From Nitrososphaerota archaeon (GTDB lineage: Archaea > Thermoproteota > Nitrososphaeria > Nitrososphaerales > Gagatemarchaeaceae), in NCBI GenBank assembly GCA_027886905.1, contig JAPCJO010000003.1, positions 20,801 through 84,800 on the forward strand: DNA of 64,000 bases. Reading direction: 5' to 3'. The position numbers and the translations under genes were made by a program. Below, piece after piece: positions 1,849 through 14,098 of this stretch. Under the pieces are notes generated by a model. It made no database searches. It had not been told where the DNA came from and saw only the letters and a list, made by a program, of their open reading frames with translations. Within the stretch, counting starts at the first letter, position 1. Every line of letters starts with the position of its first letter.

Positions 1849-2781
1849 TTGCCTTCCCGCCAAGAGCCGGGCGACAAGGACCCGGAAGAAATCCCAGACA
1901 AGTGCCCGAACTGCGGAAAGAAGGGCACATTCGTGAGGGACGAGGAGAGCGGGGAGATGGTCTGCAGCAACTGCGGCTTTGTCCTAAGAGAGAAGGAGGA
2001 GGAGACGGGGCCATCTTTCTCCTCCTCGGAGGCCGGCACCCTGGAGGTGACGTCAGGTCCTCCGACCTCAATCGCCCAGCCGGACATGGGACTCGCGACC
2101 GTGATTGGGAGGGAGGGCACGGACGCGTCAGGGACAGGGCTCTCATCCAGGACAAAGTCCAGCGTCGAGAGGATGCGCGTCTGGGACAGGAGAAGCCAGC
2201 CCGACCAGTCGGCCTACAGGAGCATGAGCAAGGCCTTCGACGAGATAAAGACCGTCGCGGCGAAGCTCTCAGTCGGGCAGGGGGCGATCGAGCGCGCCGC
2301 CTACATCTACAGGAAGGCGCTCGAGAAGCGTCTCACGAGGGGAAGGTCGTTGACGCAGCTCTCAGCTGCCGCGCTTTACGCGGCTTGCAGGGACCTGCAG
2401 ATCCCGAGGAGCCTGAAGGATGTCGCCGCAGCGGGAAACGTCAGCAAGAAAGACCTCTCTCGATCTTACAGGACCCTCGTTACCGAGCTCGACATCAGGA
2501 TACCTGTAGAGGACCCGATACGTTCGGTCCCGAAGATAGGCTCCGCGATAGGGGCATCCCCTCGGACGATGAGGAGGGCGCAGGAGATCTTGAGGATGGC
2601 CGCTGCGAAGGGGGTCTCCGCGGGCAAGGACCCGATGGGGCTCGCAGGCGCGGCCCTCTATATCGCGAGCCACCTCGAGGGTGAGGGAAAGTCTCAGCCG
2701 ATAGTGGCGAAGGCGTCCGAGGTGACCGAGGTCACGGTTAGAAACAGGTACAGGGCGCTCAAGTCAAGCCTGAAGCTTTGA
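1849..2781 (+). CDS. tfb: Transcription initiation factor IIB (TFB)
   Basis: N-terminal zinc ribbon CPNCGKKG...CSNCGFV plus two cyclin-like repeats; TTG start. Confidence 0.95.
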   Translation: MPSRQEPGDKDPEEIPDKCPNCGKKGTFVRDEESGEMVCSNCGFVLREKEEETGPSFSSSEAGTLEVTSGPPTSIAQPDMGLATVIGREGTDASGTGLSSRTKSSVERMRVWDRRSQPDQSAYRSMSKAFDEIKTVAAKLSVGQGAIERAAYIYRKALEKRLTRGRSLTQLSAAALYAACRDLQIPRSLKDVAAAGNVSKKDLSRSYRTLVTELDIRIPVEDPIRSVPKIGSAIGASPRTMRRAQEILRMAAAKGVSAGKDPMGLAGAALYIASHLEGEGKSQPIVAKASEVTEVTVRNRYRALKSSLKL

Positions 2782-2841
2782 CCCGGCGCGTGCTCCATGG
2801 CGAGATTTAGCCCTCCGTGCTCTAGCTAGAGACTTCGGGCA

Positions 2842-2866
2842 TTACATTTTCGTGCAGAAAATACGT
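2842..2866 (+). promoter_or_regulatory. Copy A of repeated promoter element (TTACATTTTCGTGCAGAAAATACGT)
   Basis: Matches consensus TTACAATCTCTTGCAGAAAATACG; 33 nt upstream of the start at 2899. Confidence 0.75.
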
Positions 2867-2898
2867 CCTCCTTAGATGAAGGCGCCGCCTCTCTTTTC

Positions 2899-3237
2899 GT
2901 GAGAATCTTGGCCAACAAGGAGAAGGAATTGAGAAGCGCCGCTGAGCGGTCGCTCAGAGAGACCCGAAGGGATTTTGACAAGAGGATCGACGAGATCAGG
3001 GCCGAGCTCCAAGAGATAGGACCCGAGGCGGTAGAGAAGGTCGAAAGATCCCTGAATGATTTGAAGAACGACCTGAAGGCCGAGCTGAAGACCGGCTTCG
3101 ACGACGTCAACGGCATGTTTGAGGACGAGGTCGAATCAGGCAGAGAGCAGGTCCGCGCGCACCCACTTCTCGCGGTCGGGGTCGCGGTCATGGCGGGCGT
3201 CATCGTCGGGATGCTGCTAGGAAAAAACAAAGACTAG
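2899..3237 (+). CDS. Small amphipathic/coiled-coil protein with C-terminal TM (DUF883/ElaB-YqjD-like architecture)
   Basis: Charged helical N-terminal region followed by HPLLAVGVAVMAGVIVGMLLGKNKD. Confidence 0.7.
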   Translation: MRILANKEKELRSAAERSLRETRRDFDKRIDEIRAELQEIGPEAVEKVERSLNDLKNDLKAELKTGFDDVNGMFEDEVESGREQVRAHPLLAVGVAVMAGVIVGMLLGKNKD

Positions 3238-3243
3238 TTTCCG

Positions 3244-3519
3244 ATGCTTCAGAAAATCATTCGGCACCTCATGGAGGACGCCACCGACGGGCTCAAGCAC
3301 GACGTCGAGGCGTACGCCAACAAGGTCCTCAAGCAGATGATGAGAACGCTGGTTCTCGCCGGCGTGGGCGTCACATTCTTGGCAGTCGGATCCGTCTTTC
3401 TCCTGGTCGGCGTCGTGGCTTCTCTCAGCAAGTTCATGTTCAGCGGGTTGGCCTGGGGACTTGTAGGCCTCATCGTTGCGCTGGTCGGTGGGGTGCTTGT
3501 CCTGCTGATCAGACGGTAA
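3244..3519 (+). CDS. Small two-TM membrane protein (phage holin / DUF1469-like superfamily)
   Basis: 91 aa, two hydrophobic segments, directly downstream of 2899-3237. Confidence 0.6.
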   Translation: MLQKIIRHLMEDATDGLKHDVEAYANKVLKQMMRTLVLAGVGVTFLAVGSVFLLVGVVASLSKFMFSGLAWGLVGLIVALVGGVLVLLIRR

Positions 3520-3537
3520 CGGGTCGAGGCTAGGCCG

Positions 3538-4737
3538 TTGAACCCGACCGAGAAGCCGATGGACGGCTCTCCGCTGCCAAAGTCGGTCCTCAAATGGGCG
3601 GCGGCGGGGCTGGTGTTGAGCTCCGCGGTCGTCATCGCGATCACGATCTTCTCGGGCGTGACCCTGTCTGACCTAGCGAAGCTCGGCTACCTGACGTTCG
3701 GTCTGGCGGCCGCTGTGTCTGCATGCAGACTCCTTGTCCAGATTGCGAGGTTTAGGGTCGTAACGACCGGACTGAGCAGCGACACAAAAATGGACCTTAC
3801 AGGCCTGCCCATCACCAGGGTGGCTAGCGAGTTCGTCTCGGAGTCGACGCCTGCGACCAGCATGGGGGTGTTCCTGCGCACCTCGTGGTTGGCTGGGAAG
3901 GGGGTGGACGGGGGAAGGGCGCTCTGGATAGGCTACTTCGAAGTGCTCATCGAGATATACGTAGGCGGCGGCCTCGCGCTCATCGCGGCGGCGTATGCGC
4001 TGTCCAGGGGGTCGGTGGCCCTAGGCTCATCGATTGCCGTAATCGCGACGGTCCTGATTGTCGGGTACACGTTGGTGTTTGTAATCCCGGCGGTAAAGAC
4101 CATCAAGGTCCCTCACCGAGTATTTGGCATCATGTCGCGACTGATAGGCGGGCCTAGGGCGACGGCCCTCTATCTCCGCGCTGTCGTGGGCTCTCTGAAC
4201 TTTTCGCTCGCGGCGCGCGCAATCGTAAGCAGGCGCACGCTGCCAGTGGTGGTGAAGGCGGTCCTTCTCACGCTCCTCGAGGACTTCTTGGAAGGGGCGG
4301 CCCTTTGGCTCGTGCTGAACGCCGCAGGCCTCAAGATTGACCTCGTCTCCGCCACCCTTGCGGCGTACGGCGTCGCGGCGGTCGCCCAACTCCCGATAAC
4401 CATCGGCGGCGCGGGTGTGACGGAGCTCACAATGCAAGCATACCTCGTTTCGGTCTACGGGTTCTCATCTTGGGCAGCCGTCGTGCTGTGGAGGATCGCC
4501 ACGTATCAGGTGATGTTGGCGGTCACGGGGATAGTGTTCATGGTGTACCTGCGCAAGAATGCTCATCGACCGTCCAAAGTCGAGGAGAAGGTGCCTCTGG
4601 AGGTCGTCCCGGTCGTAAGCCCGAACGCCCGCTCACTCGGCAATGGTCAAGCGCTTCCCTCCGGATTGGACTGTGCGGAGGCGCCAGCTGGAGGTTTATC
4701 GGACGACTCGCGCAACCGTCTTTCTCGGCAGACCTAG
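3538..4737 (+). CDS. Lysylphosphatidylglycerol synthase TM region / UPF0104 family-like membrane protein
   Basis: 399 aa multi-TM with GGAGVTELTMQAYLVSVYGFSSWAAVVLWRIATYQV, typical of the family. Confidence 0.75.
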   Translation: MNPTEKPMDGSPLPKSVLKWAAAGLVLSSAVVIAITIFSGVTLSDLAKLGYLTFGLAAAVSACRLLVQIARFRVVTTGLSSDTKMDLTGLPITRVASEFVSESTPATSMGVFLRTSWLAGKGVDGGRALWIGYFEVLIEIYVGGGLALIAAAYALSRGSVALGSSIAVIATVLIVGYTLVFVIPAVKTIKVPHRVFGIMSRLIGGPRATALYLRAVVGSLNFSLAARAIVSRRTLPVVVKAVLLTLLEDFLEGAALWLVLNAAGLKIDLVSATLAAYGVAAVAQLPITIGGAGVTELTMQAYLVSVYGFSSWAAVVLWRIATYQVMLAVTGIVFMVYLRKNAHRPSKVEEKVPLEVVPVVSPNARSLGNGQALPSGLDCAEAPAGGLSDDSRNRLSRQT

Positions 4738-5066
4738 AGATCGGGCATCGCTTGCGGCAGTGCCTTTGCGCCCCTGCGGACTGAGCTGACTGTGGCGTTG
4801 AAGTCCAGGACGCCATCTATCTCCAAGACCTCGAGCGACCTTCCTGTCGTAAGATGTTTCACTATCGCTTTTTCCAGCGACAGCGTTCCTGCAGGGCCGA
4901 AAAGCGCAAGCAACTTTACGTGGAATTCCATCGGGTCGGGGAAACCGTCAGCCATCTTCATGTGGACCAAGACCGCCTCCGTCCCACTATGACCAAGGAC
5001 CTTGTCGAGCCCGGCGTGCACCGAGTCGTTAAAGGTGGTCGCGAACAATTCCTCCACTTTACTCAC
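4734..5066 (-). CDS. Small conserved protein, paralogue of 6498-6827 (NitrOD5-like; name uncertain)
   Basis: Shares GLDKVLG(H/E)SGTxxVLxxMxMxDxFPDPxEF with ORF 6498-6827. Confidence 0.65.
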   Translation of the reverse strand: MSKVEELFATTFNDSVHAGLDKVLGHSGTEAVLVHMKMADGFPDPMEFHVKLLALFGPAGTLSLEKAIVKHLTTGRSLEVLEIDGVLDFNATVSSVRRGAKALPQAMPDL

Positions 5067-5070
5067 CTGA

Positions 5071-6501
5071 TCACACGAGTTGAGTCAGCGACGGGAGGAT
5101 GGGGTCATCGAGGTGCTGCAGCGCGTAAATCCCTGTGTAGGGCTTCACGCCGAACATCACGACCGCGCCATCCCTCACGGACAGCCTGGCGTGACTGGAG
5201 CTCATCGAGAGGATTCGCGACCTGATGGGTGAGTTTGCTGGCAGGAAGAGGATGTGCGCATCGCGCGATTGCTGTAGGGTGATTATCTCCTGGGACGTCA
5301 CCTCCAGAAGCGAGTCGAGGTCCGAAGCGAAGAGGTTCTCGAGAGCCGCTATGGAATTCACGTGTAACATGGCCTGGTCGACCGATTTCTTCCTAAGCCT
5401 TGTCGTCTCGTTCGTGACCACTTCGTGGATCTCGTTGGGCGTGGCGTGTTTCGTCATGCTGGTTGTCTCGAGGTCGCTCGACCTTAGGACGTCGAGGATG
5501 TGGAGCCTGTCGCTCGGCGTCCCCTCACCGACGGCCCTGGTCAGGACGGAACTGGTCAGGCCCGTGTTTGCTCCGGGCAACGGCAGGAGGATCGCGCTCC
5601 TCCCCATCGCCAGGAAGTTGATGATTGGTGGAAGCTCGATCGCTCTGAGGGCGAAGTAGGGGACGTCCTCGTCGTATTCGACGGTCAGCGTGCTCCCTGG
5701 GACCATCCCCCCGAGCAGCCGGTCCAATGCCGGGCTCCCGAGGGAATATGCCCCGTCGATGTCCGGCACGGGTGCGAATTTTCGTATCTCCGAGTAGTTG
5801 GGCGTGGCATACGGCTCGAAGAAGGTGAATCTTCCGTCCATGAGCGTGAAGAGGTACTTGCGCTGAGGTATCTTCGTCCCGCGCAGCTTGTGAATGGTGA
5901 ATTCCCGCACCGATCGGTCCTGCTCTTCGACGGTGGACATCTCGAGGATCCCGTCGACGAGGTAGTCGATGGTCGTCGCGCCCGGCTCTTCGCTTACGAA
6001 GACGAGCTGCGCGCCCGAGTTGTTCGAGACGGCGATGAGGGTCTTCTCCGCCCGCAATCTCTCCTTCGAGTCGAATTCCTTGGCAAGGGCGTCCCAGCTG
6101 TCGAACACTACGGTCTTGACCTTCTTGGGGTCCGTCAGTCGCATCACGAACTCCAGGGCCGAGGTCGCGTCTTCGAGCCTGACGTCCAGAAATTCTTGGT
6201 TCTCCAGGGTCTCCTTCATGGCGGGTATGTGCGTCTCGAGGAGCTCCTGCGGAACTCTGGAGGAGATGTACGCGCCGTTCCCCTTCCCCGCCGCCTTTAG
6301 GATCTCCAGCGCGACTGTCGTCTTTCCGGTGCCCGCTAGACCCTTGATGAGCATCGTCCTTATCGGACCGTTCATGAGTTGCTTCAGGCCTAGCAGCGTG
6401 GGGATCCTTGCTTCTGCCAGCTCAGACGATTCTGCCCGTGAGGTCTCAGTCCGGCGATTCGTCTGAACCGGAGCAGGGGCGTCGATTTCTTGTGTTGTCA
6501 A
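5071..6501 (-). CDS. GvpD-like / KaiC-superfamily P-loop ATPase
   Basis: Walker A IKGLAGTGKTTVALEIL, Walker B KTVVFDSWD; second RecA-like half lacks an intact P-loop (LDRLLGGMVPGSTLTVEYDED). Confidence 0.8.
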   Translation of the reverse strand: MTTQEIDAPAPVQTNRRTETSRAESSELAEARIPTLLGLKQLMNGPIRTMLIKGLAGTGKTTVALEILKAAGKGNGAYISSRVPQELLETHIPAMKETLENQEFLDVRLEDATSALEFVMRLTDPKKVKTVVFDSWDALAKEFDSKERLRAEKTLIAVSNNSGAQLVFVSEEPGATTIDYLVDGILEMSTVEEQDRSVREFTIHKLRGTKIPQRKYLFTLMDGRFTFFEPYATPNYSEIRKFAPVPDIDGAYSLGSPALDRLLGGMVPGSTLTVEYDEDVPYFALRAIELPPIINFLAMGRSAILLPLPGANTGLTSSVLTRAVGEGTPSDRLHILDVLRSSDLETTSMTKHATPNEIHEVVTNETTRLRKKSVDQAMLHVNSIAALENLFASDLDSLLEVTSQEIITLQQSRDAHILFLPANSPIRSRILSMSSSHARLSVRDGAVVMFGVKPYTGIYALQHLDDPILPSLTQLV

Positions 6502-6827
6502 GCTCTAGCACTCTTCTCTATTGCGGCGATGGTGGCGTCGAAGTCGAAGGCGCCTTCTATCTTCATTAGGTCCAGCGACCACTTGAACCTCAGTGCGAGG
6601 TCCTTGACTATCACTCTCTCCAGCGACTGCGCCCCACTTACGCCGAAGATCGCCAGTAGCTTCTTGTTGAATTCACGGGGGTCAGGGAAGTCATCGACCA
6701 TCCTCATGTAAAGCAGGACGGATGCGGTTCCACTCTCCCCTAGGACCTTGTTCAAACCGCCTTGCACTGCGTCAAGGTATGAAGGTGCGAACTCTTGCCT
6801 TGCTGGGCTCTCCGAGGATGCTTCCAT
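6498..6827 (-). CDS. Small conserved protein, paralogue of 4734-5066
   Basis: Alignment by eye with 4734-5066; stop overlaps the start of the GvpD-like gene by 4 nt. Confidence 0.65.
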   Translation of the reverse strand: MEASSESPARQEFAPSYLDAVQGGLNKVLGESGTASVLLYMRMVDDFPDPREFNKKLLAIFGVSGAQSLERVIVKDLALRFKWSLDLMKIEGAFDFDATIAAIEKSARA

Positions 6828-6864
6828 CGCTGATCAAAGCGGGCACCAGAGTATAACAAGAGAA

Positions 6865-6887
6865 TGTATTTTCTGCAAGGAAACGTA
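6865..6887 (-). promoter_or_regulatory. Copy B of repeated promoter element (minus strand TACGTTTCCTTGCAGAAAATACA)
   Basis: Matches consensus core TTGCAGAAAATAC; 38 nt upstream of the start at 6827. Confidence 0.75.
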
Positions 6888-7010
6888 CTCGTCGGTTCGG
6901 CCGTGGGCCAGGGCGGAAATCCAAAAGATTTAGAGCTAGGCCAGGGAATTCTGGGACCTGCCACTGGGTCGCCTACGCGTGAAACTTGAGGAGGGCGGTA
7001 TTTTCCCAAG

Positions 7011-7035
7011 TTGCATTTTCTTACAAAAAATACCT
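7011..7035 (+). promoter_or_regulatory. Copy C of repeated promoter element (TTGCATTTTCTTACAAAAAATACCT)
   Basis: Divergent copy; 49 nt upstream of the GtrA-like start. Also part of an inverted repeat GGTATTTT (6997-7004) / AAAAATACC (7026-7034). Confidence 0.6.
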
Positions 7036-7083
7036 GCTTCTTAAATCACAAGTCCACGGTCAAGACTCGAAGATGGCGGTAGA

Positions 7084-7587
7084 GTGAAGCGCGACATGAC
7101 AGCTACCAGCGTCGAAAGGGAGGTCGGTGAGCTTGAAATGCGGTATGGCGTCGTCAAGACGCTCAGGTTCGCGATTGCAGGGGCGGTGGGCTTTGGGGTC
7201 ACAGAGGTCGTCTTGACCATCGGCCTTCTGATCTTGTTCGGAAAGCTGAGTCTTCCCCATTCTAGTTTTGCATCGCCAGCGCTCCTCGGCTTGGATGCTC
7301 TCTCGCTCGTGATTGGCGTCTCGGCTTCCTTCTTCGTAAACGAACGGATTACGGTTCACGTGCCGAAGACTGTCAAGGGTGAGGAGGCCAACAGGTTCAA
7401 GAGGTTTCTGAAGTTTCAGGCAGTGAGCGGGATCGGGAATACAGGCATCGTGGTGGTCCAGCTCGTCCTCTTGGCGACTCTCGAGCTCTCGCCTCTCTTG
7501 GGCACAATCATAGGGGCGGTGGCCACCTATCCAATCGTGTACTTCATCTCGATCAAGTATGTCTGGAAAGCACACCGGACTAGATGA
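7084..7587 (+). CDS. GtrA-like four-TM membrane protein
   Basis: LRFAIAGAVGFGVTEVVL...SFFVNERITVHVPK...GNTGIVVVQL pattern. Confidence 0.75.
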   Translation: MKRDMTATSVEREVGELEMRYGVVKTLRFAIAGAVGFGVTEVVLTIGLLILFGKLSLPHSSFASPALLGLDALSLVIGVSASFFVNERITVHVPKTVKGEEANRFKRFLKFQAVSGIGNTGIVVVQLVLLATLELSPLLGTIIGAVATYPIVYFISIKYVWKAHRTR

Positions 7588-7863
7588 CCGGCCAGCCAGG
7601 CCAGAAGTGACATCATTTTCCAGGTGTGCCGATTGCCTTCTTGAAGGTCAGGCCGTTGCGCCCTCTTCCAAATGGGCACAAGTCACGAGCAGCCGTGAGC
7701 TTCCGGGTTACAGAAGATTCCTGAGGGGACAGATTGCGTTCGTTGACGAAAGGGACGGCAAAAAGAAAACGCGAAAGCGCTTCCGCCTGGAAGCAGAAGG
7801 CTGATGGAAGATCCGCCGAGCCTCGAGAAGGGGGGCCCAGGCGACCTCCTCGCATCCAGTCTT

Positions 7864-8025
7864 CTACTTGCCGGTAACCGGATTTTTGCCCTGGTACAGT
7901 CTGTAGCCCACCACTACTATGGCAGCGACTACTAGAATGTTGATTAGTTCTCCCCCGATGCCGCCTATTAGCCCGAAGAACCACAGGGCTAGAAGGACCA
8001 CTGCTACGGTCCAGAAAAGATCCAT
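7864..8025 (-). CDS. lmo0937-like small membrane protein (53 aa)
   Basis: Hand translation MDLFWTVAVVLLALWFFGLIGGIGGELINILVVAAIVVVGYRLYQGKNPVTGK*; not in the ORF track because it is short. Confidence 0.65.
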   Translation of the reverse strand: MDLFWTVAVVLLALWFFGLIGGIGGELINILVVAAIVVVGYRLYQGKNPVTGK

Positions 8026-8038
8026 TTGTGCTCGACTC

Positions 8039-8167
8039 CTAGATGTGGAAGTTCAGTGTGATGAATCCGAAGAAGGCGAGGACCGCGACCACTATGATCG
8101 CAAAGACTATCATGTCTCCGCCATCTCCACTTCTTTTCGTCCTCAGGAATTTTGAGTTTATTGACAT
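8039..8167 (-). CDS. Small single-TM protein (42 aa), start corrected to internal ATG
   Basis: MSINSKFLRTKRSGDGGDMIVFAIIVVAVLAFFGFITLNFHI; promoter copy D lies inside the longer annotated ORF, so the 8233 start is unlikely. Confidence 0.55.
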   Translation of the reverse strand: MSINSKFLRTKRSGDGGDMIVFAIIVVAVLAFFGFITLNFHI

Positions 8168-8200
8168 GACGTAACAAGAAGCATCATCGCACTTAAGACG

Positions 8201-8226
8201 CGTGTATCTTCTGCAAGGAATTGTAA
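8201..8226 (-). promoter_or_regulatory. Copy D of repeated promoter element (minus strand TTACAATTCCTTGCAGAAGATACACG)
   Basis: Close match to the consensus; 34 nt upstream of ATG 8167. Confidence 0.75.
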
Positions 8227-8449
8227 CAGGCATCTAAGGACTAGAGCCTGGTTGCCTCAGGCTGAATTGACACATCAAGAGAATAGAAGCGTTGCAAGCG
8301 GTTGGATTCGATTTGACCTAGGAAATTAAAAAATTGAAACCCGGTTGCGGCAATCCTTTCCGTCACCGCAACCGGTCTCCGGACTTGAGTCCACAGTCCA
8401 GAATAGGTCTAGGTCTGATCAACCCACACCTATCTGGATCTGCGGCGTT

Positions 8450-9232
8450 CTACCAGTTGGCGTCGAACGCGTACGAGTGGTCGTTCGTGTTGAGGGTCAA
8501 CGTTCCGGCCTGCGCGGTGCCAGTCACGTTGCCGGGGATCGCGTTCCAGGACACTTTTGCCGAATACGACTCGCGGTTCGGGAGTTGGATCGCGTACTCG
8601 CCGTTGGCGACCACGGCCAAGTACATCTGGCCCGTGGAGGTGTTCGTGAACTCGACGCTCGCAGGGTAGGTATCTACCTTGTTAAGAGGAGAGAACCTGC
8701 CTGAGACCGTCACGGTCGGATACCCTTCCTTGATTGGCATGGCTGCAATCGACCCGAACTTGTCCACCGATATCGACCTGTCCCCATCCTTCACTTCTAC
8801 CATCGACTCGTTGTCCACGTTTACGGCCTCTGGGATGCGGAAGTTGAGCAACCCGTCTCGAGGCAGTGGGAGCTCGTACCTTGCCACTCCGGCCGGGTCG
8901 AGCGCGCTGAGTTGATTGCCGTCGTAGGAGACCCTGCACTTCTCAACGTATCTGTTGCCCCTTACGATGATGGCCCAGTTACTGGGGAAGGGCGAGGAGA
9001 CTCTCTCCTTCAAAGTCTGGAGATAGACCTCTGATTGCAGCTTGTCCACGACGATGACCATGACTTGGTCGCCGACATCGACATCTGCATCCTCTCGCAC
9101 CGGAGAAACGATGAACTTCCCTGCTCCGGTCAGCCTCTCGATTTTTCCCTCAACCACAAGGACGCCACGCTTCGACTCTGACACGATCATTCTTTCCGCT
9201 CCTGACTTATCGGTCTCAGTAATGATAGACAT
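8450..9232 (-). CDS. Hypothetical protein with possible C-terminal beta-sandwich (carboxypeptidase regulatory-like) region
   Basis: 260 aa intact ORF preceded by tandem promoter element copies. Confidence 0.7.
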   Translation of the reverse strand: MSIITETDKSGAERMIVSESKRGVLVVEGKIERLTGAGKFIVSPVREDADVDVGDQVMVIVVDKLQSEVYLQTLKERVSSPFPSNWAIIVRGNRYVEKCRVSYDGNQLSALDPAGVARYELPLPRDGLLNFRIPEAVNVDNESMVEVKDGDRSISVDKFGSIAAMPIKEGYPTVTVSGRFSPLNKVDTYPASVEFTNTSTGQMYLAVVANGEYAIQLPNRESYSAKVSWNAIPGNVTGTAQAGTLTLNTNDHSYAFDANW

Positions 9233-9267
9233 AGGACAAAGTGGGTGACCACGCTATAACAAGCCGA

Positions 9268-9310
9268 CGTATTTTTTGCGCCAAACCGTATTTTTTGCAC
9301 TTGATTGTAA
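9268..9310 (-). promoter_or_regulatory. Tandem copies E/E' of repeated promoter element
   Basis: Minus strand TTACAATCAAGTGCAAAAAATACG (9310-9287) followed by partial copy GGCGCAAAAAATACG (9282-9268), 36 nt upstream of start 9232. Confidence 0.75.
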
Positions 9311-9391
9311 TCCGGACGGAGAGGCGTTCGACGGCCAAATTACGAATAGCGTTAGGTTTAAGAAAATCCGAACGCAAGCATACACGTTCGC

Positions 9392-9910
9392 ATGAAACCG
9401 AAGACGGCGACAGCCTCCTTCAGACTGGACGAGTCCGCGCTCGCTGCCATCCAGGAAGACGCCAAGAAGCAGAATGTCAGCGTGAACACGTTGCTCAATC
9501 AGCTCGTCCTGACCTACGCCAACTTCGACCGGCCGATGAAGCGGTTTCGCATGATAAAATTGCCGGCGTCGACCTTCAAACACCTGCTGCTGGCAGCTAC
9601 AAATGAGACGGTGACGGAGGCCGGGCACTCAACCGGGGAGGACGTCCCGAAGACGTACATGAGAGCCAAGTGGGGGGAGGTCACCGTGGAGAACGCCCTG
9701 AATTATCTCAAGATCACTGCCGACCACACCAACCTCTTCGAATACAGCGAGGTGACGCGAGGCGGGAAGGTGAACGTGACTCTATCGCACGACTTCGGCG
9801 CCAAGGGGAGTCTCTTCCTGCAGAGGTATGTCCAGGCAATATTCGAGCCGCTTGGAAAGCCGCCCAGGTTCCTACCCGACGAGAATGCCGTCGCCTTTGA
9901 GATTCAGTGA
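9392..9910 (+). CDS. Hypothetical protein with ribbon-helix-helix-like N-terminus
   Basis: N-terminal TASFRLDESALAAIQEDAKKQNVSVNTLLNQLV resembles an RHH/CopG DNA-binding motif. Confidence 0.65.
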   Translation: MKPKTATASFRLDESALAAIQEDAKKQNVSVNTLLNQLVLTYANFDRPMKRFRMIKLPASTFKHLLLAATNETVTEAGHSTGEDVPKTYMRAKWGEVTVENALNYLKITADHTNLFEYSEVTRGGKVNVTLSHDFGAKGSLFLQRYVQAIFEPLGKPPRFLPDENAVAFEIQ

Positions 9911-9946
9911 GAGCCGCCCCGCCCGTCAAGCGCTCCGAATTTTCCG

Positions 9947-9970
9947 TTACAATCTCTTGCAGAAAATACG
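9947..9970 (+). promoter_or_regulatory. Copy F of repeated promoter element (TTACAATCTCTTGCAGAAAATACG)
   Basis: Identical to the consensus; 44 nt upstream of ATG 10014. Confidence 0.8.
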
Positions 9971-10013
9971 CCCGGTTCAATAGGCGCGCGGCTGCAATTC
10001 TCGCAGGACATCT

Positions 10014-10268
10014 ATGACAAACGGGAAACGGCAGGCAACTGCCATCCTGAAGATACAAGGCATGAGCAAATCCGGACGAGCCGAGAGCTTGAGGCGGTCG
10101 GCCGCCGGGCTGGACGGAGTCTTCCTTGTGGACGTCAACTATATCTTGGACAACGTGACAATTGGCTACGACCCGGACAAACTGACGCTCGCCCAAATCA
10201 GGAGGAAGGTAGTCCCGAGCACCCCGACAACGCTTCGCGCGAAGCTTGATTCACGACGACGGGTCTGA
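10014..10268 (+). CDS. HMA-like (heavy-metal-associated fold) small protein lacking the CxxC motif
   Basis: ILKIQGMSKSGRAESLRRSAAGLDGVFLVDVNYILDNVTIGYDPDKLTLAQIRRKV. Confidence 0.6.
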   Translation: MTNGKRQATAILKIQGMSKSGRAESLRRSAAGLDGVFLVDVNYILDNVTIGYDPDKLTLAQIRRKVVPSTPTTLRAKLDSRRRV

Positions 10269-10277
10269 GCCCATCGC

Positions 10278-11228
10278 TCAAGTTGCCGCTGGTCGAGACT
10301 TTCTCAGCCAAGCCAATGTGTCTCGGATTCCATCTTCGTAGCTCCTTGCAGGATACTTCATTCCGAAGAAGTCCTCGAATTTGCTTCCGTCCAGGATGAG
10401 AGGCTCCTCTGTCAGGTATTGCATTTCCGCGAACGCGCGTGCGGTAGAGTTGAAGAGACCCGCTATCTGGACGAAAAAGCGGCTTGTCCCTGTCATCTTC
10501 GCCTCGAAGCCCATCTGCGCGTAGACGCGCGCTATGAAGTCGCGGACGCGAATTGGCTCTGGTCCCGGCACGTTGAAGTCCTGGCTGGACGCATCGGGCC
10601 TTTCAGAGGCCGCGACCATCGCCTTCGCGGCGTCAGAGATGAAGATGAACTCGTGGATTGCATCGAGCTTCCCATACCAGCGTGCCCGCTTGTTCTTGAG
10701 CGCCGACCGGAATATCCCGTCGGCGACGGAGGCCGCATTGGGACCGTAGTAATCCGGAAAACGCATGATCGCGCAGGGCACCGAGCCCTCACGCGACAGT
10801 CGCATGAAGTCGCCTTCCAGTCCGAGCCTGATTCGGCCTTTCTCGGAGCAGGGATTTCTTGGGTGATTCTCGCCGACCTTCTCTGTCCCGCAGTGGCCGT
10901 AGATGTAGACGTTGCCTGGGAAGACCATTCGCGCCTTCGCCTTGCCCGCCGCGTTGGTTATCCCGCGATGCATCTCGGGCAGGGTGGACCATCGCGAGTA
11001 GGGCGCGTTGACGCAGTTGTGGAAGACCTCTACCCCGTCGAACGCCTTCTCGAGCGTCCCAGCGTCTTCGACCGAGCCCTCGACCATGTCCACCTTGTCG
11101 GGGCTGGCGAAGACCGTACTCGCCTTGGCGGGACTCCGCACTAGCGCCCTGACCGGCCTACCGGAGGAGGTCAGCTCGTTGACTACTGCGCTGCCGAGCG
11201 ACCCCGTGGAGCCCAGCACGAGTTGCAA
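10278..11228 (-). CDS. NAD-dependent epimerase/dehydratase (extended SDR)
   Basis: MQLVLGSTGSLGSAVVNEL nucleotide-binding motif; YxxxK replaced by YGHCG; 316 aa. Confidence 0.8.
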   Translation of the reverse strand: MQLVLGSTGSLGSAVVNELTSSGRPVRALVRSPAKASTVFASPDKVDMVEGSVEDAGTLEKAFDGVEVFHNCVNAPYSRWSTLPEMHRGITNAAGKAKARMVFPGNVYIYGHCGTEKVGENHPRNPCSEKGRIRLGLEGDFMRLSREGSVPCAIMRFPDYYGPNAASVADGIFRSALKNKRARWYGKLDAIHEFIFISDAAKAMVAASERPDASSQDFNVPGPEPIRVRDFIARVYAQMGFEAKMTGTSRFFVQIAGLFNSTARAFAEMQYLTEEPLILDGSKFEDFFGMKYPARSYEDGIRDTLAWLRKSRPAAT

Positions 11229-11253
11229 CGCAAAGCGCCCCGACGTGAGAGAC

Positions 11254-11604
11254 TCAGGCGGTGGCTACGAGCGGCTCTGACGGCCTGCTCTTCCTCTCGA
11301 CCTCGATGGTGCACTTGGTCGCCAAGGCCGCGATCGCTCCCGCAGCCGCTAGCCAAGGCGCGAGGAGGACTCCGACGACTCCCGCCGTGACGGGTATCTC
11401 GAGGAGGGACTTGCCGCTTTCGTCCCTCACAGTGATCTTTGACACGTTCCCCTCGTGGACAAGCTCCTTGACCTTCTTCGTGACTTCGTCCGCCGAGACC
11501 GAGAACTGCTGGGTCCACGTCTTCTTTCCCACTTCGGTTCCGCACGCGTGACAGAACTTCGCGTTATCGACAAGGTTGGCGCCGCAGCTTTGACAGGTAT
11601 CCAT
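11254..11604 (-). CDS. Zinc-ribbon plus DUF4342-like protein with hydrophobic segment
   Basis: MDTCQSCGANLVDNAKFCHACGTEVGKK...VSADEVTKKVKELVHEGNVSKITVRDESGKSLLEIPVTAGVVGVLLAPWLAAAGAIAAL; start at 11604, within the longer track ORF. Confidence 0.75.
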   Translation of the reverse strand: MDTCQSCGANLVDNAKFCHACGTEVGKKTWTQQFSVSADEVTKKVKELVHEGNVSKITVRDESGKSLLEIPVTAGVVGVLLAPWLAAAGAIAALATKCTIEVERKSRPSEPLVATA

Positions 11605-11647
11605 GAGAGTCTCCAGCTCAAAGAGCCCGACGATTCTACTTAAGGGG

Positions 11648-11673
11648 CACGTATTTTCTGCACGAGATTGTAT
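11648..11673 (-). promoter_or_regulatory. Copy G of repeated promoter element (minus strand ATACAATCTCGTGCAGAAAATACGTG)
   Basis: Near-consensus; 44 nt upstream of ATG 11604. Confidence 0.75.
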
Positions 11674-11756
11674 GGCAGAGAAAGATGGGAAGAGACCCGC
11701 GCGAGCCTCCGTCCGGCGGCGTTCAGAGATTCGAATCCGTCGTCCGGTCTCTCGAG

Positions 11757-12200
11757 CTAGCCCTGCTTCCTCTGCGCGTCCCACGCCTTCCAGCGCGAGC
11801 TGTCCGCGAACGGGGCCATCACGTGAGTGGGCTCGATCTTGATGAGGACGCGCCTCACTCCGGGCTGGCGCATCTGGTACTTGTCCTGCCCGAGGTACTT
11901 CTTCGCCAGCTTGTCTATGTGAGCCTCCGCCCCGTCGAATGTCACTTCCTTGACGCGCCCTCGGATGACAGCCATGTTGTAGGGGTTGGTCGGGTCGCAG
12001 ACGTCGAGCGCTATCATCGGGTTCCTGACGGCGTTCTTGTGCTTCTGGCTCCCCTCGTTGGTGTTGATCAGGACGGTGTCCCCGTCGTGGTCCACCCACA
12101 CCTGCGTGACGTGGGGGGAGCCGTCTTTCATCAGCGTGGCGACGTTGGCGTAGACCTTCGCCTCGATTAGATTCTTGACCGAATCAGGAAGGGACTTCAT
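11757..12200 (-). CDS. Pyridoxamine 5'-phosphate oxidase / F420-dependent PPOX-class protein
   Basis: YANVATLMKDGSPHVTQVWVDHDGDTVLINTNEGSQKHKNAVRNPMIAL. Confidence 0.85.
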   Translation of the reverse strand: MKSLPDSVKNLIEAKVYANVATLMKDGSPHVTQVWVDHDGDTVLINTNEGSQKHKNAVRNPMIALDVCDPTNPYNMAVIRGRVKEVTFDGAEAHIDKLAKKYLGQDKYQMRQPGVRRVLIKIEPTHVMAPFADSSRWKAWDAQRKQG

Positions 12201-12484: not shown

Positions 12485-14098
12485 TTATCGCCTAGCCGCC
12501 CGGCGGGACGCGCTCCCCGTCGCGGGCGGGGAGAGCACACCCAGGAGCTTCGCGCCGTCGGGGCTCCCCCACCCCGTGCAGGCGTCCCAGCCCGGGCCTG
12601 CGTCGTACGCCCCGTTCGTGCCGGAGACGACGTCGTAGAATGCTGAGGCGGACGCCTTCTGGTAGAGGAGCGGATTGATGTAGCCGACTGGTTTACCGAT
12701 ACTCTGGTTGATGAGAGTCAGGAGGCCGGTCCAGAGGGGAGCGACCGCGCTCGTGCCGCCCACGGTTATCTGCTGTCCGTCCACGACGACTGTGTACCCC
12801 GTCTGAGGGTCGGCGTCTCCCGAGACGTCCGGGACACCGCGCCCTACCCTCCCTCCCGGGTTTGCCGACGAGGGCACGCCGGCCCCCGCCTGCCAGGACG
12901 GCAGGGCGAAGACGTCGCTCACTCCCCCTCCCGTCGCCCCGCCGCTCGGAAGGTCGTCCCACACAATCTGGCTGGTTATCTTGCCCGCCGCCTCGTTCAG
13001 GTTCGTCCCGCCGCAGCCGAGGACGTACTGGGACGACGCGGGGTAGTCTACGTGCGCCAGGCCGTCGGTCACCCCGTCTGAGGAGCCCCCGTCGCCCGAC
13101 GCGGCGCACACGGTGACACCCAGCGCCGCCGCGTCCTGGAAGGACTGGTCGAGGGCCTGGATGCCCTGGGAGGTCCACTCCGACTCTGCGCTCCCCCAGC
13201 TGATGGAGATTATCGAGGGAGTCCCTTGGGTGCCGTGGAGGGCGGCTTCGACCGCGTCCACGAAGCCCGCGTCCGTGTTGGGGGCGAAGTATACCAGGAC
13301 CTTTGCCTTGGGCGCGTTCGCCCCGGCGACCTCTATGTCGAGGAGGACCTCGGCGTCAGGGCCGTTTGTGTCTCCGGTGGGAGAGTTTGAGGCGCCGTCG
13401 ACGGAGACCGAGGTCACGCTCGGGGGCGCGATGCCGAGGTCGGAGAAGTATGTCTGGATGTCGCTCGGCGAGTATCCGCCGCCCAGCTCGATGATGCCGA
13501 GCGTCTCCCCGGAGCCGTCCTCCCCTGAGGGGAAGTCGTAGAGGCTGCCGACCTGGGTGGGGGTGTATGAGACGCCGGCCGCCGCGGCGGGCCTGATGCG
13601 GAAGTGCGCGCGGGCCTGCGGGCGGTTGTCCAACCCGAGCACCGCGCTGACCAGCGGCAAGAGCTCTGGGGAGAGGTATACGGGCCCTGTGCGGCCGCGA
13701 TAGGGCCCCCTCTCGGGGTGCACGTAGCGCGAGAGGCTCACATTGAAGGCCGCGGAGAACTGCCCGACCGTCCCCGTCAGCACGACGGAGCGCTTCGCCG
13801 GGCTCGCTTCCAGGACCTTCAGGGAGTTGTCCCTGGCGAAGTCACGCACCTTGGCCAGCTCGTCGCGGGTCGAGCCGAACGACTTTGAGAACTCGGACCT
13901 CGTCGGGTAGGACCGCGAGCGGGGCAGCTGGGAACCGAGCCGCTTCACCAGGGAGAGCTCCAGGCTAGGAGCCCTCGGGCGCAGCACGACGATCACGCGG
14001 ATGCCCTCCTCTGGGTCGAGCTTTCCCGAGACTCGGGACCCCTCCAGGGGCTTGCGTTCGCTGCCCGTAAGCGGTGCGCGCGCGCTACGTGACGGCAT
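12485..14098 (-). CDS. S53 family peptidase (pro-kumamolisin / sedolisin-like)
   Basis: Activation-domain-like N-terminus, YTPTQVGSLYDFP, SISWGS, GTSAVAPLWTGLL (catalytic Ser context GGTSA); no obvious signal peptide. Confidence 0.9.
   Translation of the reverse strand: MPSRSARAPLTGSERKPLEGSRVSGKLDPEEGIRVIVVLRPRAPSLELSLVKRLGSQLPRSRSYPTRSEFSKSFGSTRDELAKVRDFARDNSLKVLEASPAKRSVVLTGTVGQFSAAFNVSLSRYVHPERGPYRGRTGPVYLSPELLPLVSAVLGLDNRPQARAHFRIRPAAAAGVSYTPTQVGSLYDFPSGEDGSGETLGIIELGGGYSPSDIQTYFSDLGIAPPSVTSVSVDGASNSPTGDTNGPDAEVLLDIEVAGANAPKAKVLVYFAPNTDAGFVDAVEAALHGTQGTPSIISISWGSAESEWTSQGIQALDQSFQDAAALGVTVCAASGDGGSSDGVTDGLAHVDYPASSQYVLGCGGTNLNEAAGKITSQIVWDDLPSGGATGGGVSDVFALPSWQAGAGVPSSANPGGRVGRGVPDVSGDADPQTGYTVVVDGQQITVGGTSAVAPLWTGLLTLINQSIGKPVGYINPLLYQKASASAFYDVVSGTNGAYDAGPGWDACTGWGSPDGAKLLGVLSPPATGSASRRAARR

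Follow-up and report, generated by a model that had tools for sequence, protein, structure and literature searches.

A 64,000-nucleotide (nt) stretch of DNA from a Nitrososphaerota archaeon of the Gagatemarchaeaceae (contig JAPCJO010000003.1 of assembly GCA_027886905.1; the whole stretch is called the window below) carries seven near-identical 24-bp elements, all of them intergenic and gene-facing, within 8.8 kb. We consider it likely that these elements are upstream activating sites (UAS) for a ribbon-helix-helix (RHH) type protein of 172 amino acids (aa), which is encoded among them at 9392-9910 on the + strand. The evidence consists of the near-uniqueness of the element in its assembly, its fixed distance from a TATA-like box further downstream, its retention before the same gene families in other species, and its linkage there to the RHH gene and, in variant forms, to diverged RHH paralogues.

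The 24-bp element and its place in the promoter

We built a weight matrix from the seven copies that a first-pass annotation of the letters alone had reported, and scanned it over the window. All seven were located by matrix and pattern search at the places given: A (2842-2865, +), B (6865-6888, -), C (7011-7034, +), D (8203-8226, -), E (9287-9310, -), F (9947-9970, +) and G (11650-11673, -). Full-matrix scores were 34-41 bits and leave-one-out scores 27-39 bits, the best-scoring copy being F, which lies immediately 3' of the RHH gene. As had been claimed, the copies are oriented toward genes on both strands; none was observed within a gene, though about 86% of the 1849-12200 segment is coding, and the 24-mer alone is common to them, their flanks being different. 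The annotation had also reported, from a scan by eye, no other good copy in the remaining ~52 kb. After the seven, the next scores in the window were 22.9 bits, for a weak copy directly behind E that had not been listed, E2 (9268-9291, -), and then 11.8 bits. The whole assembly (1,611,815 bp, 76.6% complete) was searched with a relaxed pattern, the reversed pattern serving as control. At 2 or fewer mismatches exactly the seven sites were returned, and 0 with the control; at 3 mismatches, E2 and one match on another contig were added.

In the first-pass annotation, the AAAATAC of the element was taken for a TATA box and TTACAATCTCTTGC for an extended TFB recognition element (BRE), with transcription starting about 25 nt after AAAATAC. 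An alignment of 30 sites from the family, numbered from the element start, contradicts this assignment. The order observed was the 24-mer, about 6 bp of pyrimidine-rich sequence, an A/T block at 31-36, a GC-rich stretch and an A/T rise at 50-56, with 97% A/T at positions 33, 34 and 36. The second A/T block, exemplified by TTAAGT, TCAATAG, CTATATG and GATATAG, lies 7 nt past the element. In the standard archaeal layout the TATA box is centred 26/27 bp before the start, and a purine-rich BRE lies just 5' of it (PMC5512572); reading the profile with this layout, we take the second A/T block as the TATA box and, because that box is placed further 3', the 24-mer as a UAS beside the BRE, of which AAAATAC is a part. 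Positions 25-30, the place of the BRE, are pyrimidine-rich in the 30 sites. A general promoter profile from the longest open reading frames (ORFs) was blurred too much by uncertain starts to fix the usual BRE and TATA box of the genome, and it rose only slightly between -23 and -35.

The predicted TATA boxes in the island are TTAGATG for A (2872-2878, +), TGTTATA for B (6852-6858, -), TTAAATC for C (7041-7047, +), TTAAGTG for D (8190-8196, -), TGTTATA for E/E2 (9255-9261, -), TCAATAG for F (9977-9983, +) and TTAAGTA for G (11637-11643, -). At the standard distance, a TATA box is missing for E, the strong and distal half of its pair, and present for E2, which is weak and 19 bp closer to the gene; E/E2 probably operates as a tandem. 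From element end to start codon we measured 33 nt for A, 37 for B, 49 for C (GTG at 7084), 35 for D, 43 for F, 45 for G and 54 for E, or 35 when counted from E2, in agreement with the 33-55 nt originally noted. Counted from the element start, the start codons of A (GTG at 2899), B (ATG at 6827), D (best read from the ATG at 8167) and E2 are at positions 58, 62, 60 and 60, respectively, which is 24-28 nt from the predicted TATA centre (24 nt for A). These start codons coincide with the predicted transcription start, and the genes behind A, B, D and E2 are therefore probably leaderless; the genes behind F, G and C start at positions 68-74. Transcription should be expected near position 58-62, and the A/T rise at 50-56 fits a melting region. 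The A/T profile, the second block at 31-36 and the start codons at 58-62 together speak, if indirectly, against AAAATAC as the TATA box, and we reject that assignment. Starts about 25 nt after AAAATAC are improbable on this comparison, and the failure of that expectation would probably leave the regulon standing. The site adjoins the BRE and TATA box from upstream at constant spacing, as is expected for archaeal UAS activators of the TFB-RF1, EarA and Ptr2 type.

The element and the RHH gene in related genomes

We compared 46 genomes of the family. The element was found in G001, G004, G007 (congeneric with the window's genome), G021, G022, G024, G028, G034, G036 and G038. Behind it are the same gene families as in the window, namely HMA-fold proteins (in nearly every genome), DUF883, DUF4342 and the 260 aa protein, along with others, for example one of winged-helix-like type and one of 141 aa. 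In G007, a single element leads an array of DUF883, holin, LPGS, GtrA, 109 aa and KaiC genes, which the window splits among the A, B and C units; each of these units has its own element, so that the element's position tracks the genes through rearrangement. That the same gene families keep the element in other species despite changed operons makes a regulon under one regulator, as the annotation had proposed for the island, well supported by the comparison.

As to which regulator this might be, the TFB encoded at 1849-2781 (PF00382 2e-34) and the RHH protein had both been proposed, and the distributions favour the latter. An RHH orthologue is present in 11 of the 46 genomes (in one as a fragment only), and the element occurs in all 11; the 35 genomes without the orthologue gave element matches in 3, all weak. 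The Fisher value for this co-occurrence, 3e-8, is inflated at the genome level, as sites flanking the RHH gene are inherited along with it; good sites on other contigs are likewise restricted to genomes with an RHH orthologue. We regard weak matches in G002, G009 and G035 as doubtful or due to chance, the TATA geometry being missing or unclear. Wherever the flanks were intact among the RHH orthologues examined, an element was seen on either side of the gene. G166, a genome of a different family, has a perfect-pattern site on the 6.8-kb contig that also encodes an RHH homologue ranking among the best outside family f1. In G015 (42%) and G084 (35%) a site lies immediately 3' of the RHH gene. The closest relative of the TFB (85%) is in G001 only, with no element within 12 kb of it, and element-bearing genomes such as G007 gave TFB matches of at most 57%. 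We reject the TFB as regulator on this distribution, its orthologue not being present wherever the element is, and the RHH protein is the best candidate on genomic grounds.

Several further observations concern the relatives. In genus g7 (L045, L047, L050), a 31 aa peptide (MATNQQ...YLRRMKARLSR) is divergent from the RHH gene and replaces the 260 aa protein. Broken-looking RHH copies, with an internal TAG, a split frame or a truncation, lie near retained sites at L088 (G028), L043 (G007:C12) and G038:C6. In another family of the order, a good element with fitting TATA geometry precedes a multicopper-oxidase-like gene of G129 (L148 8980, - strand), which may be chance. Other families of the order appear to include ammonia oxidisers, judged partly from gene content.

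Diverged RHH proteins were found to have variant sites of their own. Relatives with 44-54% identity (L155-L158) have TTGCA-like 10-bp repeats followed by TAC in the same place 3' of the gene; the 3' part of the site is different, a GATATA or GAAATA box comes 7 nt on, and an HMA-fold-like gene is next. In ammonia-oxidiser-like genomes, distant members (27-33%) are accompanied by TTGCA-N5-TTGCA facing a rhodanese-type gene, with the ATG 34-35 nt past the site. The register was the same over 17 paralogue sites, with TTRCA at 1-5 and 11-15, A-C at 22-23, the TATA box at 31-37 and an A/T rise at 50-53. These sites were chosen partly by eye, so that the profile alone is biased, and counts of the repeat serve as the unbiased tests. 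Of 47 such non-orthologous RHH genes, 17 have TRCA-N6-TRCA in their flanks (1.9 +- 1.3 in shuffles), with a spacing of 6 far above the others, and the repeat is 13-fold denser beside RHH genes than elsewhere on the same contigs. Across paralogues and families, the spacing from site to TATA box is fixed within about 1-2 bp.

G007 encodes up to about 18 RHH-type paralogues on several contigs (L165-L175), some of which (of the MQEP...RTRTK type) are accompanied by another form of site, TTACATTGTAAACG-like, before a TATA-like box. In many paralogue loci (L155, L156, L157, L158 and L147), as at 10014-10268 of the window, the RHH gene and UAS are followed by a small protein of HMA-like fold that lacks the metal-binding cysteines. 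In L162 and L134, which are from different families, the site behind a diverged RHH gene precedes an aldo-keto-reductase-like gene.

The RHH protein and the readings of its site

The model of the 172 aa protein is confident (pLDDT 91). Residues 4-51 make up the RHH part, in which an extended segment leads into helices at 14-26 and 31-51, the strand forming only in the dimer; K4, R11, N32 and Q37 are invariant across 26 members of the family. Residues 47-172 resemble in predicted fold the V4R domains of PoxR and DmpR (PDB 5frv, 5frx, 6iy8), with a TM score of 0.65-0.67 to the phenol-sensing domain of PoxR and 0.61-0.62 to Bet3; the top-ranked structure matches are designed proteins with poorer overlap. 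A sensor role for this C-terminal domain is a lead from the model. The RHH profile matched none of the sequences of solved structures, and a search of a viral structure library gave nothing usable. Members of the family come mainly from this order, and some from other families in the phylum; relatives occur in Thaumarchaeota/archaeon metagenome-assembled genomes, including palsa_1368 and bog_1369 (Candidatus Gagatemarchaeum stordalenia).

We picture the action of the protein as follows. RHH dimers would bind in tandem, all on one DNA face, to half-sites that are spaced by roughly a helical turn, namely TRCA at 2-5, TRCA at 12-15 and TAC at 21-23. With the last half-site ending about 7 bp before the TATA box (31-37), the bound protein would abut the BRE and could recruit TFB/TBP to a promoter with a pyrimidine-rich BRE position. 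The V4R-like domain would probably sense a redox signal or a small molecule. Besides small membrane proteins, the regulon includes an ATPase of KaiC/GvpD type, a DUF4342 protein with a zinc ribbon and a protein of HMA fold, and its content suggests that it may be an envelope or stationary-phase stress response.

Besides the inflated association mentioned above, several observations count against an RHH activator with a V4R-like sensor. The RHH gene's own promoter has no element facing the gene. Pfam scores for the RHH part are below the curated cut-offs (RHH_1 16.8 vs 20.5; CopG_antitoxin 19.5 vs 28), and for this reason we call the protein RHH-type rather than a member of a named Pfam family; 16 of the 26 members weakly match HicB. 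The likeness to V4R is structural only, with Foldseek E of about 0.02-0.05 and about 10% identity, and no Pfam V4R match appeared among the families shown for the 26 members at E up to 1. Among 11 held-out distant RHH genes, the 10-bp repeat was present in 5, the full geometry in about 3, and a spacing of 8 also in 5; because this result is modest and some other spacings are as frequent, the site rule appears to weaken in distant clades. The protein's role is a prediction, and most characterised RHH proteins, the archaeal viral ones included, are repressors (PMC5569661).

This last point bears on the sign of regulation. The RHH protein might bind these sites and repress, spreading over the BRE and TATA box like the archaeal viral proteins; cooperative spreading from upstream sites has been described (PMC5569661), the sites adjoin the BRE and TATA box, and E is tandem. 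Yet site and TATA box do not overlap, and a TATA spacing fixed to about 1-2 bp is predicted by contact with TFB/TBP and unneeded for occlusion; the pyrimidine-rich BRE position is also compatible with an activator-dependent promoter. We regard repression as unlikely. A different concern is that the element might be read by some other DNA-binding protein that is unlinked to it, the RHH gene being no more than a conserved neighbour in the regulon. It is true that binding by the RHH protein is predicted only, and that some G001 sites precede winged-helix-like genes. A third-party regulator, however, would predict neither the variant sites that diverged RHH paralogues on other contigs have in the same place and register nor the 13-fold enrichment of the repeat beside RHH genes, and we give such a regulator little credence.

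Archaeal TFB paralogues are able to select promoters, and a TFB gene is adjacent to the island; the elements could accordingly be special core promoters, with an extended BRE and AAAATAC as TATA box, used by the TFB of 1849-2781. Against this stand the separate TATA-like box 7 nt beyond the element, the matrix scan, which detected no element before the TFB gene, and the confinement of the TFB orthologue to G000 and G001, away from the element in G001, when the element itself occurs in genomes without that orthologue. We find this reading highly improbable. That the copies are near-identical and clustered in 8.8 kb might suggest a dispersed repeat, or the remains of a mobile element, with no part in regulation. 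We reject this reading and assign it practically no probability: only the 24-mer is conserved, the copies are intergenic and gene-facing with TATA spacing kept, and in other species it stands before the same genes although these are on other contigs. Activation by the RHH protein from a UAS is thus the reading that we prefer.

Genes of the island and relation to known regulators

The targets are small proteins of the membrane and of signalling, and several of the family assignments given here score below Pfam cut-offs. UAS A heads an operon of a DUF883-like membrane-anchored coiled-coil protein (112 aa; 2899-3237, +; PF19029 8e-5, under the cut-off; UAS-led orthologues in G001 and G007), a small Phage_holin_3_6-like membrane protein (3244-3519, +; under the cut-off; same operon place in G001 and G007) and an LPG_synthase_TM membrane protein (3538-4737, +; PF03706 1.2e-14). 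Behind B are a 109 aa protein (6498-6827, -; 57-61% relatives in G001 and G007), a GvpD/KaiC-type P-loop ATPase (5071-6501, -; PF07088 9e-15, PF06745 3e-11) and, last in the unit, a 110 aa protein with no Pfam match (4734-5066, -); the matches of the 110 aa and 109 aa proteins in G001 and G007 overlap, and the two look related in sequence. C precedes a GtrA-like membrane protein (7084-7587, +; PF04138 5e-8). D leads a 42 aa single-span membrane protein, recognised from its sequence (8039-8167, -; 84% relative in G001), and then a DUF5670 small membrane protein (7864-8025, -; PF18919 3e-8). The 260 aa protein behind E (8450-9232, -) has no Pfam or NCBIfam match and a UAS-led 58% relative in G004. 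Behind F is an HMA/CopZ-fold-like protein of 84 aa without the metal-binding CxxC (10014-10268, +); no other gene accompanies the RHH gene as constantly, and its product might act together with the regulator. G faces a zinc ribbon and DUF4342 protein (11254-11604, -; PF14242 1e-29; UAS-led 75% orthologue in G007). A PADLOC search gave no defence match. The target content suggests a resemblance to envelope or stationary-phase stress response genes. Just beyond the island, a sedolisin/kumamolisin-like protease ORF (12485-14098, -) was recognised by eye.

Tandem operators are typical of the bacterial RHH regulators CopG, NikR and MetJ, and NikR joins the RHH fold to a sensor domain. The protein described here shares their fold; they differ in being repressors with other operators, and the C-terminal domain of NikR is of ACT type whereas that of our protein resembles V4R. 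In PoxR and DmpR, the V4R domain is joined to a bacterial AAA+ activator. We know of no linked paralogue family with separate sites for EarA, an archaeal activator of Methanococcus maripaludis. EarA and TFB-RF1 of Pyrococcus furiosus bind just 5' of the BRE, which is weak for TFB-RF1, and activators at a UAS are thus a kind already known (PMC5937170, PMC5512572). As with the predicted UAS here, the TFB-RF1 site lies just 5' of the BRE and keeps a conserved distance to the TATA box, and the targets are few, one of them adjoining the regulator's own operon; TFB-RF1 differs in its palindrome, TCTG-N5-CAGA, from the RHH protein and 10-bp direct repeats predicted here, and in its smaller regulon (PMC5937170). 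EarA likewise requires several short repeated sites immediately 5' of the BRE for activation, but these are other sites and serve one main operon (PMC5512572). The archaeal viral proteins SvtR, AvtR and F55 share the RHH fold and tandem DNA binding, and AvtR is able to activate too; they differ as small viral proteins, mostly repressors of promoters, without a sensor domain like this one (PMC5569661). In the open literature searched, which mostly excludes subscription journals, we found no publication that describes a comparable cellular RHH regulator, and within that literature an RHH-V4R family with paralogue-specific sites appears to be new.

Taken more widely, we think the balance leans toward Nitrososphaeria, ammonia oxidisers included, having an undescribed family of one-component regulators, in which RHH is joined to a V4R-like sensor and of which a genome would encode 1 to about 18. 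Each would read its own variant of a shared activating site, TTRCA-N5-TTRCA-N5-WAC, whose distance from the TATA box does not vary, and the site would usually be beside the regulator gene. Transcriptional control in Thaumarchaeota is barely understood. If this wider reading is true, RHH proteins would count as archaeal activators, a class in which many paralogues each have a specificity of their own; for an uncultured acid-soil lineage, a regulator would be known together with the DNA site, promoter geometry and target genes that belong to it; and there would be a general rule, open to binding and transcription tests, for locating the sites that paralogous regulators use in ammonia oxidisers available in culture. 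Regulons could then be read directly from archaeal sequence without genetics.

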